Shown in pieces: positions 2,282 to 63,980 of a stretch of 64,000 nucleotides of DNA. The stretch comes from Chloroflexota bacterium (GTDB lineage Bacteria; Chloroflexota; Dehalococcoidia; UBA2979): contig VGPD01000001.1 of NCBI GenBank assembly GCA_016875635.1, positions 45,641-109,640 on the forward strand. Direction: 5' to 3'. The notes under the pieces are model-generated. The model was not told the origin of the DNA, ran no database searches, and saw only the letters and a program-made list of their open reading frames with translations. Made by a program: the position numbers and the translations under genes. Numbering within the stretch: position 1 is the first letter of the stretch; every line of letters starts with the position of its first letter.

Positions 2282-2929
2282 TTAGACCGGCGCGTACTTC
2301 TTCGCGTCCGCCAGGAAGATCTCGATCCCCTTGTCCGTCAGGGGGTGGTCCACCATCTGGAACAGCACCGCTGCCGGGATCGTCGCGATGTGGGAGCCCG
2401 CCAGCGCAGCCTCCGTCACGTCGCGTGGGCCGCGGATCGAGGCGGCAAGCACCTCGCAATCGATCTGGTAGGTGTCAAATACCTGCACGATCTCCCGGAT
2501 CACTTCCATGCCGTCGTGCCCGGCGTCGTTCAGCCGGCCAACAAACGGCGAGACGAACGCGGCCCCGGCCTTCGCTGCAAGGAGCGCCTGGTTCGCCGAG
2601 AAGATCAGCGTCGTGTTGACCCGGATGCCCTCGGCGCTCACCCGCCTGATCGCCGCCAGCCCCACCTCGGTCATCGGGATCTTCACCGCGATGTTCGGGT
2701 GCCATGCCGCGACGCGGCGTGCCTCTTCGACCAGCGCTTCCAGTTCCGTCGAGATGCACTCGGCGGAGATCGGGCCGTCCACGACCGAGCAGATTTCGAG
2801 GACGCGTGCCTTGTAGTCGACGCCCTCGCGCGCGACGAGGGTCGGGTTCGTCGTTACGCCGTCGAGCACGCCCATCGCCGCGCCGCGGCGAATGTCGTCG
2901 ATGTTGGCGGTGTCGAGGAAGATCTTCAT
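2282..2929 (-). CDS. tal: Transaldolase, small TalC/fructose-6-phosphate aldolase type
   Basis: This enzyme transfers three-carbon dihydroxyacetone units in the non-oxidative pentose phosphate pathway. The small subfamily also includes fructose-6-phosphate aldolase. At 215 residues it has the length of the compact TalC/FSA group rather than the >300-residue classical transaldolase. The start [16 protein letters not shown], the motif GVTTNPTLV and the Schiff-base lysine in NIAVKIPMT are all present. [15 protein letters not shown] is the usual late strand. Transaldolase versus aldolase activity cannot be decided by eye. It lies about 200 bp upstream of rho and about 50 bp downstream of the membrane protein coupled to pyrG, so it may share their transcript. 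Confidence 0.9.
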
Positions 2930-2977
2930 GTGCGGCCTCGGATCGTGTGCCTGTCCAGGCGATGCTGGAAGGGCGGG

Positions 2978-3445
2978 CTAGAACGGCTTGAAGACGGGGA
3001 GCCAGACCATCAGAGGAATGGTGGCGACGATCAGCGTACCGAAGACGAGCGGGACTTTGTCCTCCAGCGCGTCGTGCAATTCGGGTGTTTCGGAACCATG
3101 CTTCCGCGCTGCCAGCGCGAGGTAGCGCACGCGACGCAGGCCGATCCCCATCAGCGGGACGAAGATGAAGATGTCTAGCATCGTCAGCACCTGGAGCGCC
3201 ACCAGCCAGCCGGTGGTGATCACGTTCCAGTCCGCCGCGGTCGCCCAGAAATAGCCCGAGAAGAACGTCGCGATGAGCCCCGGGAGCAGCACCAGCGTCT
3301 CGCCGCGCTGCGCTTCGTTCAGTAGGAACGACTTCTCCTCGATGGTCGGCGCCACCCAGGCCTTCCAGATCGGCACCACGGTGGCGCCCACCCCTCCCAT
3401 CATGAGGAAGAGCGAGGTCAGGTGGAGGAACCGCCAGAATGTCAC
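2978..3445 (-). CDS. Four-helix integral membrane protein (DUF2269-like)
   Basis: This 155-residue protein is nearly all hydrophobic, with about four membrane spans. It starts VTFWRFLHLTSLFLMMGG, and the conserved HLTS...GG entry and the late VPLVFGTLIVATIPLMVW segment resemble predicted membrane proteins of the DUF2269 type. The GTG start at 3445 overlaps the pyrG stop by 4 nt (GTGA), which indicates translational coupling. The track's 424-residue version is mostly the wrong frame of pyrG and is rejected. No function can be assigned. Only this C-terminal third of that track ORF has real protein character. Confidence 0.8.
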   Translation of the reverse strand: MTFWRFLHLTSLFLMMGGVGATVVPIWKAWVAPTIEEKSFLLNEAQRGETLVLLPGLIATFFSGYFWATAADWNVITTGWLVALQVLTMLDIFIFVPLMGIGLRRVRYLALAARKHGSETPELHDALEDKVPLVFGTLIVATIPLMVWLPVFKPF

Positions 3446-42147: not shown

Positions 42148-42861
42148 TCACCCCGAACACGGCAGCCGCTCCACCACAGACGAGAGTTCGGCTCGATCCA
42201 TGGGCGGGACCGCCAGCGGGAACACCTGGAATCGTAGATCCGGATGGCTCACCATGAACCTCAATACGCAATCAGGACGCAAGTAGTCGGCCATCACCAA
42301 CGACTCCTTTGGATTAACAGTCCCAGGCAGCGTCTTTTGAGACCCGATGATGAACAGTCGTGGCCGGCTCTGCGGCACGAAGAAGCGCGCATCGAGCACC
42401 ACTAAGTCGCAGACGTAGCCAAGTTCATTCAACTCTCGGATCGCGTCTTCGAGGTCTTGGCCCGCCTTTGAAGTCGCGAAACTCGGCACATTCTCCAGGA
42501 GCACGGCTTTTGGCCGCCGTCGCTTCATCTCACGGATGACACGCGCGAACTCCCAGAACATGCTCGACTGTTCACCATCAAACCCGGCTCGCTTGCCAGC
42601 CAAAGACAAGTCAGTGCATGGGAATGATGCAGTGGCAACGTCAATATCGGGGATAGAGCCCCCGCTCACGTCACGAACGTCGCCAAGCTGGAAGTCGCTG
42701 GCGTCGAAGTTGGCGGCATACAGCCTGTGCTTGAACGGCTCGATATCGTTGGCGAACACTACACGCCCACCGCAGGGCTCAAGCGCCTTCCGTACCAGCC
42801 CGGCACCAGCGAAGAACTCGGCAACCCGAAAGCCGTCTGGCTTCCCTAGCGTTGTAGTCAT
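42148..42861 (-). CDS. C5 cytosine DNA methyltransferase, apparently truncated at its C-terminus
   Basis: The 237-residue product carries motif I (FRVAEFFAGAGLVRKAL), the catalytic PC loop (ASFPCTDLSLAG), motif VI (LLENVPSF) and motif VIII (QSRPRLFIIG). The C-terminal motifs IX and X, needed to complete the SAM site, are missing; reading stops soon after SSVVERLPCSG. The target-recognition region is also minimal. Base composition is clearly lower in G+C than neighbours. ATG 42861 has GGGGGA 5 nt upstream; the track's start adds lysine/arginine-rich nonsense. No restriction enzyme is next to it. It is likely an inactive remnant of a transferred module. Confidence 0.75.
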   Translation of the reverse strand: MTTTLGKPDGFRVAEFFAGAGLVRKALEPCGGRVVFANDIEPFKHRLYAANFDASDFQLGDVRDVSGGSIPDIDVATASFPCTDLSLAGKRAGFDGEQSSMFWEFARVIREMKRRRPKAVLLENVPSFATSKAGQDLEDAIRELNELGYVCDLVVLDARFFVPQSRPRLFIIGSQKTLPGTVNPKESLVMADYLRPDCVLRFMVSHPDLRFQVFPLAVPPMDRAELSSVVERLPCSG

Positions 42862-42945
42862 CGGTTCCCCCAACCGAATCAAACTATAGAACATACGTCT
42901 TGTCAATTGAAATATGCGCTTGATCTGATTCGAGCGAATTCGCTT

Positions 42946-42990
42946 GCGCCGGTAACTCAGTGGATAAAGTATCAGTCTCCAAACTGACAC
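42946..42990 (+). other. Broken tRNA (5' half, CCA-type anticodon region)
   Basis: GCGCCGG-TAACTCAGTGGATAAAGTA-TCAGTCTCCAAACTGA has the order of an acceptor 5' strand, D-arm and anticodon arm with CCA (tRNA-Trp-like). The anticodon loop is one base short and no T-arm (GGTTCGA) or 3' acceptor strand follows before lysA. It is therefore a remnant, at the edge of the low-G+C methyltransferase segment. Integration into a tRNA gene is the likely history. Confidence 0.5.
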
Positions 42991-54013: not shown

Positions 54014-54148
54014 GTGAAGCGTACCTGGCAGCCGAAACGCCTTTCCCGTCAGCGCAAGCTCGGTTTCCGAGCCCGCATGGCCACGTCCGACGGGCGCAAC
54101 GTGATCGCCCGCCGGCGCGCCCACGGCCGCAAGCGGCTGTCGGTCTGA
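54014..54148 (+). CDS. rpmH: Large-subunit ribosomal protein bL34
   Basis: Too short for the ORF track (44 codons), but unmistakable: GTG start, then [26 protein letters not shown] and a basic tail, [12 protein letters not shown]. bL34 sits near the peptidyl-transferase exit region of the 50S subunit. It heads the conserved origin-proximal rpmH-rnpA-yidD-yidC-jag cluster. Confidence 0.97.
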
Positions 54149-54220: not shown

Positions 54221-54646
54221 ATGCGGGACCCTGGCGATCCATTCGGCCACGCCGGCCGTACGCCACCGGCGACGCCCCCGGACAGACTGCGCCGCCGCTC
54301 GGAGTTCGCCCTCGTCATGCGTGAGGGTCGCCGAGCGCGCCATTCGTTGCTCCACCTGGTCGTGCGCCACACGGGCGCGCCGGGGACGCGGATCGGGTTC
54401 TCTGTCGGAAAACGGGTCGGCGGCGCTGTAGTGCGCAATCAGGTGAAGCGGCGGCTGCGCATGATCGTCCGTGGGTTCGCCTGGCGTGATGGGTTGGACA
54501 TCGTCATCCTCGCCCAGCCTCCGGCTGCCATCGCTAGTTTCGAGGCGCTTTCTGGTGCTCTCGCGCGTACAAGTGATCAGGCACGTATTCTCGAATCTGA
54601 AACCAGCGGAAGTACCTCCAACACCGACGCAGGGCGCTCTCAGTGA
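54221..54646 (+). CDS. rnpA: Ribonuclease P protein component
   Basis: RnpA is the protein cofactor of the tRNA 5'-processing ribozyme. The 141-residue protein contains the RNA-binding signature FSVGKRVGGAVVRNQVKRRL and a typical N-terminus with RLRRRSEFALVMREGRR. The N-terminal ~20 residues and C-terminal ~20 residues are extra. ATG 54221 has no clear binding site. Its stop overlaps the yidD start by 4 nt. Confidence 0.92.
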   Translation: MRDPGDPFGHAGRTPPATPPDRLRRRSEFALVMREGRRARHSLLHLVVRHTGAPGTRIGFSVGKRVGGAVVRNQVKRRLRMIVRGFAWRDGLDIVILAQPPAAIASFEALSGALARTSDQARILESETSGSTSNTDAGRSQ

Positions 54647-54924
54647 CCGTCAGCCAAACGACTACTGGTGTGTCGAATGACCTGAGCAGCGGCCAGCGTG
54701 CTGCCCTGGGCATGATCCGTTGGTACCAGCGGATGATCTCGCCGAATCTGGGCACGAGGTGCCGGTTTGCCCCATCCTGCTCCCATTACGCCGCCGATGC
54801 CATCGAATTGCACGGATTGTCTCGCGGTATAGCGCTCGCGGTGCGTCGGCTTGCCCGTTGTCGACCCGGCGGCGGCTCAGGATTTGACGCCATCCCGCCT
54901 CGATCAAATGGGGAAGCCTCATGA
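54643..54924 (+). CDS. yidD: Membrane protein insertion efficiency factor YidD
   Basis: The 93-residue protein has the family core MIRWYQRMISPNLGTRCRFA, then PSCSHYAADAIELHG, and RCRPGG...GFDAIP. YidD helps insertion of membrane proteins with YidC. The GTG start overlaps rnpA (GTGA) and the stop overlaps the lipoprotein start (ATGA), so all three are coupled. The N-terminal ~18 residues are extra compared with the family. Confidence 0.93.
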   Translation: MTVSQTTTGVSNDLSSGQRAALGMIRWYQRMISPNLGTRCRFAPSCSHYAADAIELHGLSRGIALAVRRLARCRPGGGSGFDAIPPRSNGEAS

Positions 54925-56174
54925 TCGGCCTCCGGATCGCCCATCTGCGACCTGCCACCGAGCGGATGTTTCACGTGAAACATATCCACAACCTCATCCA
55001 CAACCGGGACTCAGAGGGTGCTGGTTGTGGACAACTTGCGGGTCGCTCACCTGCACGACGACGGGTCACCGCGCTCGCAGGGCTCATCGCGGCCTCGACC
55101 CTCTTGATCGCCGGTTGTGGCGGGATCGCCCCCGCCGCTGGATGGGCGGCCCCGGCTCGCATGCCGGACGGCAGCATCCTGATCCAGGTGAAACCTGGCG
55201 AAGTGCGCGCCATCGACCCCTCCTCCGGGTCGGAGCGGTGGCACTTCCCGAACTCCGTCAAGACGGAGAAATCATCGAAGCGCGTCTCGCGCCCGGTGAA
55301 GGGCACGTTCTACGCAGCGCCCGTATTCGACCAGAATCGGACGTACCTCGTCTCGTACGAGGGGCATCTCGTCCGGCTCGACCGTCCGCAGGGGTCGACG
55401 GAGATTGCGAACCCCTGGACCGTCGAGTTGGGTGAGAACGTCGTCGCGACGCCGGTCCTGAGCGGCGGGCGCCTCTACGTGCCGACAGAGGCCGGCGAGG
55501 TGATCGCGGTCAACGCGGAGGACGGCAGCATCGTCTCGCGCATCAGGATCGAGTCCGGGCGCCTCTGGGGTTCACCGCTGATCTCTGGCGAAAACCTCAT
55601 CCTGTCGAACTTCGACCACAAGACGACGTACGCGATGCGGCTTTCCGACGGTCAGGCCGCATGGTCGACGGGGCACCTTGGCGCCTCCATCGCGGATCTC
55701 GTGGCCTCCGGGCAGAGTGTGCTGATTGGCTCCCTCGACGGCTCGCTGCACGCGATCGATGCCGCGAACGGAGCACCCCGCTGGCAGTTCGCGGCTGATG
55801 GCTGGGTGACCGGCTCCCCGCTCGTGGCCGGCGACACGATCTACGCCGGCACGATGAGGGGCAGCGTTTACGCGCTCACCCTCGACGGCCAGCAGCGCTG
55901 GCGGTTTACGCTCGACGACGCCAAGCCGGAGTTCCGGGCGACGCCGGCGCTGGTGAATGGCATACTAGTGGCCGTGTCGCGCCGCGGTGTCGTCGTCGGC
56001 CTCGACCCGGCGACCGGGCGCCAGCGCTGGCGCAGCGAGATCGCGGATGTCCGGCTGGACGCCAGCCCGCTGGCCGTTGACGGTTCCGTCTTCCTGGCGA
56101 CGACCAAGCACGCGTTGATCCGTGTCGACGCGTCATCCGGCGCAACCCAGACCATCAGCAATCCAAGCGAGTAG
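54921..56174 (+). CDS. PQQ-repeat beta-propeller lipoprotein between yidD and yidC
   Basis: The 417-residue protein has a lipobox (LLIAGC, Cys about residue 66) after an unusually long, Arg-rich N-terminal region. It then forms a beta-propeller of PQQ/BamB-like blades, with repeats such as GSERWHFPN, GQAAWSTGHLG, GAPRWQFAADG, GQQRWRFTL and GRQRWRSEI. ATG 54921 overlaps the yidD stop (ATGA). ATG 54966 or GTG 54975 would give a more normal signal peptide. The first codons contain parS and DnaA-like boxes. A BamB-like role at the membrane surface is possible but this is a monoderm-like set of genes. Confidence 0.8.
   Translation: MIGLRIAHLRPATERMFHVKHIHNLIHNRDSEGAGCGQLAGRSPARRRVTALAGLIAASTLLIAGCGGIAPAAGWAAPARMPDGSILIQVKPGEVRAIDPSSGSERWHFPNSVKTEKSSKRVSRPVKGTFYAAPVFDQNRTYLVSYEGHLVRLDRPQGSTEIANPWTVELGENVVATPVLSGGRLYVPTEAGEVIAVNAEDGSIVSRIRIESGRLWGSPLISGENLILSNFDHKTTYAMRLSDGQAAWSTGHLGASIADLVASGQSVLIGSLDGSLHAIDAANGAPRWQFAADGWVTGSPLVAGDTIYAGTMRGSVYALTLDGQQRWRFTLDDAKPEFRATPALVNGILVAVSRRGVVVGLDPATGRQRWRSEIADVRLDASPLAVDGSVFLATTKHALIRVDASSGATQTISNPSE
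54967..54982. promoter_or_regulatory. parS: parS centromere site
   Basis: TGTTTCACGTGAAACA is a perfect 16-bp copy of the bacterial parS consensus bound by ParB. It encodes MFHVKH-like codons inside the lipoprotein N-terminus. parA and parB lie about 4-6 kb downstream. Confidence 0.95.
54982..55034. other. oriC: Cluster of DnaA-box-like sites; candidate origin region
   Basis: ATATCCACA (54982-54990), TCATCCACA (54994-55002) and TGTGGACAA (55026-55034, reverse orientation) each match the DnaA box TTATCCACA in 8 of 9 positions. They lie directly beside parS in the rpmH-yidC-parAB neighbourhood. No dnaA gene is present and no clear A+T-rich unwinding element is visible, so the origin call is tentative. 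Confidence 0.5.
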
Positions 56175-56182
56175 GGGAGCAC

Positions 56183-57151
56183 ATGCCAATCGGCTACGTC
56201 TGGCAGACGTTCCTCGAAACGCCGCTCATCAACGTGATGGTGGCTCTCACGGCGGTGTGTTTCTCGTCATACGGGCTGGCTATCCTCGTGTTCACCGTGA
56301 TCTCACGCGCGCTTCTTTTTCCATTTACGCTGCGCATGCTGAATTCTATGAAGGCACTGCAGGCGATCCAGCCACAGATGCAGGAGATACAGAAGAAGTA
56401 CAGCGATCCACGACGGCGCCAGGAAGAGACCATGCGTCTCTACAAAGGGGCCGGGGTCAATCCGCTGGGCTGCCTGAGCGGGCAGCTGATCCAGTTCCCG
56501 CTGTTCATCGCGCTCTATCAGGTCATCCGGGTCACGCTCGGAGGGTCGCCGGAGAGCATCCTGGACCTGTCGAGCCGGCTGTACGACGTGCCGTTCATCC
56601 AGGAACAGATCCCGCTGTCCCGTTCGTTCCTGGGAATGGACCTGGGCGCGAACGGCGGCATCCTGCTGCTGGTGGGCGTCTTCTGTGCGATGTGGCTCCA
56701 GCAGCGGATCTCGTCCTCGCGCAGCGCCACCATGGCGTCGCAATCGAGCGAACAGCAGCGCCAGATGGCGATGATGATGCAGTGGATGATGCCCGCTGTA
56801 TTCTCATGGTTCGTCCTGTTCTCCCCTGCCGGTGTCGGCATCTACTGGTTCGCCAGCACCGTCATCGGCATCATCCTGCAGTGGGCCTTCGTGGGCCCGG
56901 GTGACTTCACCTGGGGGTCGCTGGTCCCGAACGTCGCACGCGCGCGACTCGGGATGCCCGCCGCCCCGAAGGCGCACGCCCGAGCACACGCCAACCGTCC
57001 CGCCGCTGAACGCGGCACGTCCGAAACGAGGGAAACCGATGCGGGTAGCAGAAACCAGCGGAAGAACAGTCGACAAAGCGGTGGCGAAGGCGCTGGCCCA
57101 ACTCGGCCTGCGCCGGGATCAGGTCGAAATCGACGTCGTCACCGAGGGTAA
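56183..57151 (+). CDS. yidC: Membrane protein insertase YidC (Oxa1 type, short form)
   Basis: YidC inserts membrane proteins alone or with SecYEG. The 322-residue protein lacks the ~250-residue periplasmic domain of Gram-negative YidC. It has the conserved hydrophilic-groove Arg (ISRALLFPFTLRMLNSMKAL), the cytoplasmic helix QPQMQEIQKKYSDPRRRQEE and five membrane spans (e.g. PLFIALYQVIRV, MMPAVFSWFVLFSPAGVGIYW). The basic, low-complexity C-terminal tail (about 40 residues) overlaps the jag gene for 113 nt in another frame. Confidence 0.95.
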   Translation: MPIGYVWQTFLETPLINVMVALTAVCFSSYGLAILVFTVISRALLFPFTLRMLNSMKALQAIQPQMQEIQKKYSDPRRRQEETMRLYKGAGVNPLGCLSGQLIQFPLFIALYQVIRVTLGGSPESILDLSSRLYDVPFIQEQIPLSRSFLGMDLGANGGILLLVGVFCAMWLQQRISSSRSATMASQSSEQQRQMAMMMQWMMPAVFSWFVLFSPAGVGIYWFASTVIGIILQWAFVGPGDFTWGSLVPNVARARLGMPAAPKAHARAHANRPAAERGTSETRETDAGSRNQRKNSRQSGGEGAGPTRPAPGSGRNRRRHRG

Positions 57152-58262
57152 GGCCGGCCGTTTCGGCTTCGGCTCGGAAGACGCGATCGTCCGCGTCACA
57201 GCCCACGAGTCGGTCCTGACCTCTGGCCCTTCACGTGGCCCGCGGCGCGCCGCTCCCACGCGCCAACGGCAGCCAGAGGCAGCCGATGTCCTGCCGCAGC
57301 GTTACGATGATGACGATGATAACGATGATGACGATCGAGACGACGACGCCCCTCGTTCCGCCGACGATGGCGACGCTGTCCCCGCTGACGGGGACGCGTC
57401 GCGCCGCCGCCGTCGTGGTCGCCGTGGCGGGCGCGGACGCCGCCGCGAAGACGGTGCACCGGCCAGTGACGGTGAGCAGCCGGCCGCCGAGGCGGTCGAA
57501 GCCGCAGCGCCGCGCGCCGTCGCACCAGCCCGGCCGGCTGGATCGTCCGGTGGGCGTGAGCCCCGCGCCGCTGGCCCCGCCCGCGGTGGTGGCCGGGCGC
57601 GCCCGGGCGGCCGGAACGACCGCGGTGGCCGTGGTAGCGGCCGGGATTTCCGTGAGCCCCGCGAACCGCGCGAGGCTCGTCCACAGGGCTTCACCGTCCC
57701 CGGCGAGGAAGAGGTGCGGATCCCGGATGCGCCCGACGAGCTTCCGACCGCCCCGCGGCTCGACGCTGCGGACGACCTCGACCTCGCAGGAGGCATGCTG
57801 CGCGACATCTTGAACCTGCTGGGGCTGCAGGGTACCGAGATCACCGCCCGCGACCCGGAGACCCCCGGCGACGGGGCGGGCCTGATCGCCCAGGTCTTCG
57901 ACGTGTACGGCGAGGACGATGTGGCCTCAGACGAGCTCGGACTGCTGATCGGGCGGCGTGGCGAGACGCTCTACCACCTGCAGTACCTGATGAACACGAT
58001 CGTCGGGCAGCGGCGGGAGAACGCGCCGGTCTTCGGCCTCGACATCGAGGGATACCGCCGCCGGCGCGAGCAGATGCTCGTGGACATGGCGCGCGAGATC
58101 GCCGAAGAGGTTCGGGCCAGCGGTGACGTGATCACGTTGGAGCCGATGCCGGCCCACGAACGCCGGATCATCCACCTGACGCTCGAGACCGAAGCAGGCG
58201 TGCGCACAGAGAGCGTCGGCTCCGGTGAGAATCGCCAGGTCGAGATTCTGCCCGCCGAGTAG
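57039..58262 (+). CDS. jag: Jag/KhpB RNA-binding protein with a very long charged linker
   Basis: The 407-residue protein has three known parts. The Jag-N domain (about 1-52) has TVDKAVAKALAQLG and GKAGRFGFG. The type II KH domain (about 250-325) has the GxxG loop in LLIGRRGETLYHLQYLMN. The R3H domain (about 335-395) has R-x3-H in HERRIIH. Between them lies a ~185-residue disordered region with a poly-Asp block (89-103), an Arg block (121-137) and RGG-like repeats (180-215). Family members usually have a linker of 20-100 residues. GAGGGAAACCG precedes ATG 57039, inside yidC. KhpB acts in cell-size and RNA control. Confidence 0.93.
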   Translation: MRVAETSGRTVDKAVAKALAQLGLRRDQVEIDVVTEGKAGRFGFGSEDAIVRVTAHESVLTSGPSRGPRRAAPTRQRQPEAADVLPQRYDDDDDNDDDDRDDDAPRSADDGDAVPADGDASRRRRRGRRGGRGRRREDGAPASDGEQPAAEAVEAAAPRAVAPARPAGSSGGREPRAAGPARGGGRARPGGRNDRGGRGSGRDFREPREPREARPQGFTVPGEEEVRIPDAPDELPTAPRLDAADDLDLAGGMLRDILNLLGLQGTEITARDPETPGDGAGLIAQVFDVYGEDDVASDELGLLIGRRGETLYHLQYLMNTIVGQRRENAPVFGLDIEGYRRRREQMLVDMAREIAEEVRASGDVITLEPMPAHERRIIHLTLETEAGVRTESVGSGENRQVEILPAE

Positions 58263-59188: not shown

Positions 59189-60028
59189 ATGAGCGTATGC
59201 ATCGCGGTCACCAACCAGAAGGGTGGCGTCGGCAAGACGACGACGACCGTCTCGCTGGGCGCGTCGCTCGCGGCGCGCGGACTGCGCGTGCTGATCGTGG
59301 ACGCCGACCCGCAGGCGAACGCGACGAGCGCCCTCGGCGTCAAAGGGCGCGACGAGGCCGGTCTGTATGCCGCGCTGATCGAGGAAGAACCGCTGGAGCG
59401 TTCGGTCGAGCCCACCGCGACGGCGAACCTCTGGATCGTGCCGACGACACCGGCGCTCGCGGGCGCCGAGGTCGAACTCGTGACGGTGATGGCACGCGAG
59501 TTCCGGATGAAGCGTGCCCTCGAATCGCTGCGGACGCAGTACGACGTGATCCTGATGGACTGCCCGCCGTCGCTCGGCCTGCTCACGGTCAACGCACTCG
59601 CGGCCGCGGATGAGGTGATCATCCCCGTGCAGGCGGAGTACTTCGCGCTCGAAGGCCTGGGCCATCTCTCGCGCACGGTGGAGATGATCCGCCGGAACCT
59701 CAATCCGCAACTGGCGATCCGGGGCGTGCTGCTCACGATGTACGACTCCCGGACGAACCTCGCGCGCGAGGTGGAGCAGGAGGTGCGCACGCATTTCCCC
59801 GCCACCTTCCGGACCGTGATCCCGCGCTCGGTACGCCTGGCGGAAGCGCCGAGCCACGGCGAGCCGATCACGGCGTACGACCCGTCCTCGACGGGCGCGA
59901 AGGCGTACGAAGAGCTCGCGAACGAACTGATCGAGCGGCTGCGCGAGCGCGAGTTGATCCCTGCCGTCGCCCCGATGCGAGCTCGCGTCGCGGGCGCCCC
60001 CGCCTCGGAGGTCGCACATGGCGCGTAA
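59189..60028 (+). CDS. parA: Chromosome partitioning ATPase ParA (Soj)
   Basis: The 279-residue protein has the deviant Walker A (NQKGGVGKTTTTVSLGA), Walker A' (VLIVDADPQANATSALG) and Walker B (VILMDCPPSLGLLTVNAL). It drives ParB-parS complexes apart. It overlaps parB by 11 nt. The perfect parS is at 54967. Confidence 0.97.
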   Translation: MSVCIAVTNQKGGVGKTTTTVSLGASLAARGLRVLIVDADPQANATSALGVKGRDEAGLYAALIEEEPLERSVEPTATANLWIVPTTPALAGAEVELVTVMAREFRMKRALESLRTQYDVILMDCPPSLGLLTVNALAAADEVIIPVQAEYFALEGLGHLSRTVEMIRRNLNPQLAIRGVLLTMYDSRTNLAREVEQEVRTHFPATFRTVIPRSVRLAEAPSHGEPITAYDPSSTGAKAYEELANELIERLRERELIPAVAPMRARVAGAPASEVAHGA

Positions 60029-60935
60029 GGGCGGACTGGGCCGCGGGCTCTCCGCGCTGATCCCGGACGGCTCGCCGGGCGATCCGGAGACGGCGCCGCG
60101 CGACGAGCGCGTGCCCGCCACCGATGTGGCGATTGAGGATGTCGTCCCGAACCCGCAGCAGCCGCGTACGTTCATCGACCCGGAGCGGCTCGCGGAACTT
60201 GCGGAGTCGATCAAGCTATACGGCATCATCCAGCCGCTGCTCGTCACGGAAGAACGCGGGCAGGATGGGCGGATCGTCTATCAGCTGATCGCCGGTGAGC
60301 GGCGTCTGCGTGCCGCGAAGGCGGCGGGCCTCGCGCGCGTCCCGGTCACGATCCGGCAGACGACCCCGCAGGAACTCCTCGAGATCGCGATCGTCGAGAA
60401 CGTCCAGCGCGCGGACCTCAATCCGCTGGAGGAGGCGGTCGCCTACCAGCGACTGATCGAGGAGTTCCACCTCACACAGGCGCAGGTCGCCGAACGCGTG
60501 AGCAAGTCGCGCGTGGCGATCGCGAACACGCTGCGGCTGATGGACCTGCCGGTGGAGGTGCGGGCCTCGATCACCGGTGGCGATATCTCTGAGGGCCACG
60601 GGCGCGCGCTGCTCGGGCTGCCGGTGGCCGAAGATCGGCTGGCCGCCTGGCAGCGCGTGGTCGACGAGGGCTTGAACGTGCGCCAGACCGAGCGCATGGT
60701 GCGCGAGTGGGGCGGCACCGAGGCGAAGCCCTCGAAGCCGCGCCAGCCGAAGCCGGAGGTCCGCGGTCCGGCGGCGGTCCCCCAGGGGTTCGAGGAGGCG
60801 GTGCAGCGCGCCCTCGGCACGAAGGTGACGCTCAAGCGGAACCAGGCGGGACGCGGGTCCCTCACCATCCATTTCTACAGCGACGAGGAACTCACCGGAG
60901 TCCTCGAACGAATCCTCGGAGAGGGCGTGCTATGA
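60018..60935 (+). CDS. parB: Chromosome partitioning CTPase/DNA-binding protein ParB
   Basis: The 305-residue protein starts RKGGLGRGLSALIP (the ParA-stimulating N-terminus). It has the CTP-binding GERRLRAAK motif, the ENVQRADLNPLEEA motif, a helix-turn-helix for parS (LTQAQVAERVSKSRVAIANT) and a C-terminal dimer domain. It overlaps parA and, by 4 nt (ATGA), the ridA-like gene. Confidence 0.97.
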   Translation: MARKGGLGRGLSALIPDGSPGDPETAPRDERVPATDVAIEDVVPNPQQPRTFIDPERLAELAESIKLYGIIQPLLVTEERGQDGRIVYQLIAGERRLRAAKAAGLARVPVTIRQTTPQELLEIAIVENVQRADLNPLEEAVAYQRLIEEFHLTQAQVAERVSKSRVAIANTLRLMDLPVEVRASITGGDISEGHGRALLGLPVAEDRLAAWQRVVDEGLNVRQTERMVREWGGTEAKPSKPRQPKPEVRGPAAVPQGFEEAVQRALGTKVTLKRNQAGRGSLTIHFYSDEELTGVLERILGEGVL

Positions 60936-63329: not shown

Positions 63330-63980
63330 TCACCGCCCAGTGTCGTCATAGCGATTCCCCTTCTGCAGGTTGTGCCGACTGCACAGCGTCCACAGATTCG
63401 AGAATTCGGTCGGCCCGCCAAGTGACCACGGCTTCTTGTGATCTACATGAAGAATCACGCCATGCTTCCGAGGGCTTCGGAAGCATTTCTGACAAGTGAA
63501 ATTGTCGCGTTCGAATACATCGCTCCGGAGCCCCGGTGAGATACGCCGACGGAGCGCAGCAACTGAAGACGTGCGACGACTACCGAGTGCCTCCCCGCGA
63601 GGATAGGGGAGCAGGTATCCCTTGTTGCCCTGGAAGTGTCCAACGATCAGCGCGGCCTGTAGGAAGTTCGCTACGAAGCCCGGTGCTGTTACATCCAAGA
63701 ACGCACCACTCTGCACTCCGAATGTCCCGAAAACGAGTTGGCGCGCTTCCGAGACATCGAACACCATCTTTCGTAGGTACCGGCTGGCCTCATCGGCTCT
63801 GCGTTGTCGATCGGAAACCGTGAATTCACGCGCGCGCATGGCGATCGTCTGGCCGAGTTCCAGGATCGAGGTGCTCTTTCTTCGAGTCAACGAGAGGTTC
63901 AAGGAGAGCAGCATCCCAGCTCGCGTGTAGGCGAAAAGCCTCCAGAATCCTTGGTCGTTTCTGTAGAGCTGAAGTGACAC
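63330..63980 (-). CDS. HNH endonuclease, lower G+C
   Basis: The 216-residue protein has a C-terminal HNH nuclease with zinc knuckle: FTCQKCFRSPRKHG, LHVDHKKPWSLGG and SNLWTLCSRHNLQKGN. The N-terminal ~130 residues (YRNDQGFWRLFAYTRAGMLL...) resemble no family I know. GTG 63980 is preceded by GAGG. Base composition is clearly lower in G+C than the rest of the window, like the methyltransferase at 42.1 kb. It may be a transferred restriction-type enzyme. The gene lies at the window edge and could continue further upstream only if another start exists there. Confidence 0.78.
   Translation of the reverse strand: MSLQLYRNDQGFWRLFAYTRAGMLLSLNLSLTRRKSTSILELGQTIAMRAREFTVSDRQRRADEASRYLRKMVFDVSEARQLVFGTFGVQSGAFLDVTAPGFVANFLQAALIVGHFQGNKGYLLPYPRGEALGSRRTSSVAALRRRISPGLRSDVFERDNFTCQKCFRSPRKHGVILHVDHKKPWSLGGPTEFSNLWTLCSRHNLQKGNRYDDTGR

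Follow-up and report, generated by a model that had tools for sequence, protein, structure and literature searches.

A chromosomal parS site overprinted on the start of a BamB-like lipoprotein gene in a Dehalococcoidia lineage, with putative DnaA boxes behind it and a probable replication origin about 100 kb away

Clusters of DnaA boxes that lie outside the replication origin are known, such as datA, DARS, and the DnaA-box clusters of B. subtilis. In chromosomal ParABS systems, ParB loads at the centromere site parS and slides outward, and ParA drives segregation of the origin domain (PMC7333895, PMC7022226). The parS sites are usually found in a zone around the origin (PMC7022226, PMC7333895), and their location within coding sequence is known, since nine of the ten sites in P. 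aeruginosa are so placed (PMC4368675). The basal unwinding system of a bacterial origin consists of a DnaA box, a spacer of up to 16 bp, and at least three DnaA-trios (PMC8287927).

The locus described here shares features with each of these systems. Like other chromosomal parS sites, it contains the 16-bp palindrome TGTTTCACGTGAAACA close to parAB, probably in the origin domain, but here the palindrome and its flanking bases form a start codon and the n-region of a signal peptide, and this arrangement is conserved over many genera. The DnaA-like boxes are grouped away from oriC, as in datA, DARS, and the B. subtilis clusters, but they adjoin parS within coding sequence, and DnaA binding to them is putative. 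Clustered DnaA-like boxes are also a feature of oriC with a basal unwinding system (PMC8287927); however, the parS locus has no DnaA-trios by the strict test described below and is not beside dnaA. The encoded protein resembles BamB and other PQQ_2 β-propeller lipoproteins in its PQQ_2 match (E 8e-42) and lipobox cysteine, whereas its gene lies between yidD and yidC and its N-terminus is encoded by parS. In the literature, of which our coverage is incomplete, no earlier description of parS serving as a conserved start codon came to light, nor any mention of the peptide MFHVKH. We consider it likely that the locus is a chromosomal ParABS centromere overprinted on the 5′ end of the lipoprotein gene, that oriC is located about 100 kb away at dnaA-obgE, and that the boxes are genus-specific, putative DnaA boxes. 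The conserved overprinting of the centromere site on a gene start is the more solid finding of the analysis.

The window, i.e., the whole stretch of 64,000 nucleotides analyzed (a Chloroflexota bacterium; Dehalococcoidia, UBA2979; assembly GCA_016875635.1, contig VGPD01000001.1), contains the genes listed in Table 1 in the order rpmH, rnpA, yidD, the BamB-like PQQ_2 lipoprotein gene, yidC, jag, a pfkB kinase gene, parA, and parB. The reading of the ORFs and the Pfam matches agree with the surroundings named for parS and the boxes in the original prediction (rpmH-rnpA-yidD-yidC-jag-parAB). The parS site is situated about 4 kb upstream of parAB. Two further genes on the minus strand of the window should be noted. 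A C-5 cytosine DNA methylase gene (42148-42990), whose product matches the Pfam model over its first half only, lies in a local low-GC patch and is possibly truncated or recently acquired. A gene for an HNH endonuclease-like protein (63330-63980) is located where the contig ends, in a stretch of lower GC content.

Table 1 Features of the parS locus and its neighborhood (positions in the window)
Feature	Position	Strand	Remarks
rpmH	54014-54148	+	GTG start; read by eye
rnpA	54221-54646	+	Putative; from ORF list, position, and sequence inspection
yidD	54643-54924	+	PF01809, E 1.7e-24
BamB-like (PQQ_2 β-propeller) lipoprotein gene	54966-56174	+	PF13360, E 8.3e-42
parS, perfect 16-bp palindrome TGTTTCACGTGAAACA	54967-54982		0 mismatches; within the 18-mer ATGTTTCACGTGAAACAT (54966-54983)
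DnaA-like box 1, ATATCCACA	54982-54990	+	8/9 columns invariant in five species of the genus
DnaA-like box 2, TCATCCACA	54994-55002	+	7/9 columns invariant in five species of the genus
DnaA-like box 3, TTGTCCACA	55026-55034	-	8/9 columns invariant in five species of the genus
yidC	56183-57151	+	PF02096
jag/khpB	57039-58262	+	Jag_N and R3H domains; start inferred
parA	59189-60028	+	PF13614 and CbiA
parB	60018-60935	+	ParB_N, HTH_ParB, and ParB_C

The palindrome is the sole match to parS in the window up to three mismatches (0.05 expected), and a count over the 2.09-Mb, 85-contig assembly gives it as the only perfect copy. Copies with one and two mismatches are present at C9:52227-52242 and C6:54909-54924 of the same assembly. 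Both are intergenic and lie in a common repeat (about 265 bp; the two copies align with mismatches and gaps) that contains TGTTCCACGTGAAAC, CGGTAGATTCGATC, and repeated TTGAGCC...CTCA units; one repeat copy is located upstream of an apparent rpsB. These near-matches are not counted as true parS, since they are within the common intergenic repeat. The two places may act as secondary parS sites, or the repeat may be a regulatory one dispersed in the genome. Two genomes of family f16 (G124 and G092) have 36 and 13 sites, respectively, that match parS with at most one mismatch; they are scattered over the contigs, and their numbers are far above those of the other genomes of the class.

The codons ATG-TTT-CAC-GTG-AAA-CAT provide the start codon and residues 1-6 (MFHVKH) of the lipoprotein, and these residues constitute the n-region of its signal peptide. 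The signal peptide is followed by the lipobox cysteine, the invariant C51, and the PQQ_2 propeller. The original prediction placed a perfect parS inside the start of the lipoprotein gene, and this is true more literally than was claimed, as the start codon itself comes from parS. An alternative ATG at 54921, which overlaps the yidD stop codon, could lengthen the lipoprotein upstream, but the ATG within the parS-bearing 18-mer is favored by the relatives.

We searched 44 genomes of the family, of which the 40 with yidD serve as the base for the parS counts. The site occurs just after yidD in 38 of the 40 (up to two mismatches): the perfect 14-mer GTTTCACGTGAAAC in 36, and sites with one or two mismatches in two others. 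It is absent from this position in the remaining two (G005 and G006). In 33 of the 40 genomes, parS opens the lipoprotein frame as RTG/TTG-TTT-CAC-GTG-AAA-CAN or a close variant, and the frame runs directly into the signal peptide, the lipobox cysteine, and then the propeller domain. The codons TTT-CAC-GTG-AAA, or nearly identical ones, are found in every one of these fusions, and MFHVK is invariant across an alignment of 23 sequences whose rows are 27-84% identical to the window protein. The codons TTT, AAA, and CAT are rare in the window's genome (4%, 10%, and 9% usage, respectively), which points to DNA, not peptide, as the conserved item. In two genomes (G034 and G036), no in-frame start codon is present upstream of parS, so that the start must be a parS codon. 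In two others (G035 and G037), the lipoprotein is read in a frame different from that of parS, and the reduced genomes G001 and G002 have no lipoprotein-type ORF after parS in its frame. These four cases indicate that the position of parS is the primary constraint and that the fusion is a frequent consequence.

Outside the family, the same fusion of parS with a PQQ_2 lipoprotein is found at five loci of a second Chloroflexota group (L112, L130, L132, L141, and L153). The wider search that gave these loci used a DNA pattern of parS plus GWA, which also has many chance matches in unrelated phyla; neither of two lipoprotein alignments has a stretch of sufficient conservation for such a search. 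A frame with MFHVKH at its N-terminus in Mycobacterium colombiense looked like rsmG, but the 61-residue fragment matched no Pfam family. In the sample of the class, most families have no parS at up to one mismatch; where the site is present, it is often located directly 3′ of yidD, including in other families.

Three DnaA-like boxes follow parS, two in direct and one in inverted orientation. As originally predicted, they lie within 52 bp and each matches TTATCCACA at 8 of 9 positions; box 3 further matches TTRTCCACA, the consensus of the high-GC DnaA box, at all nine. The window has one group of three boxes within about 53 bp, and 300 dinucleotide shuffles of its sequence yielded no such group; a chance cluster is rejected on this ground. 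The whole assembly has 15 exact TTRTCCACA sites, one of which is at the parS locus, and no two on one contig are closer than about 24 kb. Looser paired boxes elsewhere in the genus occur at about the rate of the control pattern. The convergent pair TCCACA...TGTGGACA is present at the parS locus in all five genomes of the genus and has only two other matches, one each in G020 and the window's genome.

All three boxes are kept beside parS in the window's genome, G021, and G023. Two boxes at one mismatch are found in G022, and one box with decayed versions of the other two in G020. Within the sampled class, the parS-TCCACA arrangement was found in this genus only, and the other yidD-parS loci of the family showed no comparable box cluster. 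In the alignment of the five species, parS and the three boxes form a nearly invariant island with fixed spacing: 23 of 27 box columns are invariant, compared with 4 of 41 columns from yidD to parS and 9 of 62 in the sequence behind box 3. In all five species, box 3 has the codons TGT-GGA-CAA or TGT-GGA-CAG at a fixed spacing from parS, and TGT and GGA are rare in the genome (11.7% and 5.1% usage). Selection at the DNA level was evaluated by resampling synonymous codons and scoring the box count. The probability of three boxes is 0.0004-0.0012 in the three species that keep them all, and that of the observed count is 0.006 in G022 and 0.05 in G020. The invariant columns, the rare codons of box 3, and the resampling together give good support for a DNA-level function of the boxes inside the N-terminal coding stretch in this genus. 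Of the DnaA-binding regulatory locus embedded in coding sequence that was originally proposed, the DNA-level conservation is established in five species, while DnaA remains a putative binder.

DnaA is the best guess for that binder, judging from the box sequences. It is also possible, though less probable than our preferred reading, that the conserved element is bound by another protein, e.g., a transcription regulator of the yidC operon, or that it contains accessory sites for ParB. The restriction of the element to one genus, the deviation of the boxes from the consensus, and their weakening in G020 and G022 are consistent with this idea. However, the invariant core of the element is that of the DnaA box (CCACA or TCCACA) in all three copies, box 3 is perfect for a high-GC DnaA box, and no ParB-type half-site is visible in the element. 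A more elaborate arrangement, which we regard as rather unlikely, is a composite cis-element, in which a ParB loading site and three DnaA boxes fused in one coding sequence about 100 kb from oriC would allow DnaA to tune or sense the segregation complex, or ParB/ParA to sense DnaA, and would control the lipoprotein-yidC operon as well. It is improbable that the boxes simply reflect conservation of the protein (HIHN..IHN and CGQ residues) and have no function as DNA. The ATC, CAC, and AAC codons of boxes 1 and 2 are indeed the preferred ones, but n-regions of signal peptides are otherwise free to vary and do so here, and we reject a mere coding by-product on the codon usage of box 3 and the excess of three-box counts over synonymous resampling.

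The location of the origin was examined through dnaA and GC skew. As the original prediction stated, dnaA is not beside rpmH; a different contig carries it (C34:9884-11185), between what we read from the ORFs as coaX and obgE. With dnaA and parS on different contigs in the window's assembly, their distance there is inferred from G023 of the same genus, in which dnaA (149.7 kb) and yidD (46.3 kb) are 103 kb apart on one contig. The distance between dnaA and yidD/parS is 111, 78, and 44 kb in three other genera (G030, G001, and G027, respectively). In G030, a member of the same family with a 543-kb contig, the cumulative GC-skew minimum (413,704) is just past dnaA (412,064-413,356), in the dnaA-obgE gap. 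The parS locus of G030 is 109 kb from this probable origin and falls within the usual zone of chromosomal parS (PMC7022226, PMC7333895). The third-position skew, corrected for gene strand, switches from -0.25 to +0.28 at dnaA in G030 and stays positive on through parS at 523 kb, with no switch at the parS/yidD locus. No switch is found at parS in G027 either, where the minimum is near dnaA and close to the contig end. The skew is ambiguous in G001 and G185, and that of the window's contig and G023 is too weak to place the origin alone. For this reason, the placement of oriC in the window's genus relies on the relatives and on the conserved dnaA-obgE block. In G185, which belongs to another family, yidD and two parS sites (C1:266-288 kb) are near a skew extremum (at 287.5 kb, where the cumulative skew is maximal); dnaA is located at 413 kb, and several skew switches occur. 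The strand counts for G185 were taken from frame-filtered ORFs; longest-ORF counts disagreed and were dropped.

In many genomes of the family, the dnaA-obgE gap contains tandem DnaA-like boxes followed by CTA repeats, e.g., TTATCCACAAATCCACGCTACGACTACTACTACTA in G030, an arrangement that matches the basal unwinding system (PMC8287927). By a strict test, which requires three or more DnaA-trios starting no more than 16 bp after a DnaA box, five of the nine family genomes examined have the module at dnaA; it was not found at any of eight parS loci, including that of the window. The window's genome and G023 fail the test at dnaA, where the block deviates: the homologous block of the genus, GAATCCCC[AG]CTACGACGATGACGATCAG, is conserved with a deviant trio. 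Between dnaA and obgE on C34, positions 2827-3228 of the locus examined (L006) have weak DnaA boxes and the conserved CTACGACGATGACGATCAG block, and this region is the candidate oriC of the window's genome. These observations make the dnaA-obgE intergenic region, about 100 kb away, the most likely oriC. The original suggestion that oriC, or a second origin, is embedded in coding sequence at parS is very improbable: three clustered boxes by parS, the classic rpmH neighborhood, and a weak shift of the local skew near 55-56 kb of the window speak for it, but the skew minimum in G030 and the unwinding module are at dnaA, the boxes are missing from the parS locus outside the window's genus, and the weak skew of the window's contig has its minimum at 55 kb of the contig, with parS at 100.6 kb.

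The overprinted centromere with a distant oriC would function as follows. After loading at parS, ParB would slide from there out into the yidD-lipoprotein-yidC cluster, while segregation of the origin domain would be the task of ParA. The palindrome and its flanking bases at the same time supply the start codon and the MFHVKH n-region. Replication would start elsewhere, in the dnaA-obgE gap with its own module of DnaA boxes and DnaA-trios for unwinding. The conserved three-box element, which lies in coding sequence downstream of parS, has been gained in the window's genus only. It may bind DnaA by the ParB loading site; titration of DnaA or tuning of the downstream yidC operon would be its most likely role.

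The persistence of parS across many genera as start codon and signal-peptide segment illustrates how firmly its position can be fixed. The fusion would tie ParB loading to the translation start of one gene and to transcription through the yidC operon. If ParB loads at this parS, transcription into the lipoprotein gene and yidC has a ParB-loaded site to cross; immediately behind this site, in the window's genus, lies an element that DnaA possibly binds. The dnaA-obgE gap emerges from the analysis as the likely origin of this uncultured lineage, and the genus-specific DnaA-like boxes beside parS are a concrete candidate for crosstalk between replication initiation and segregation.
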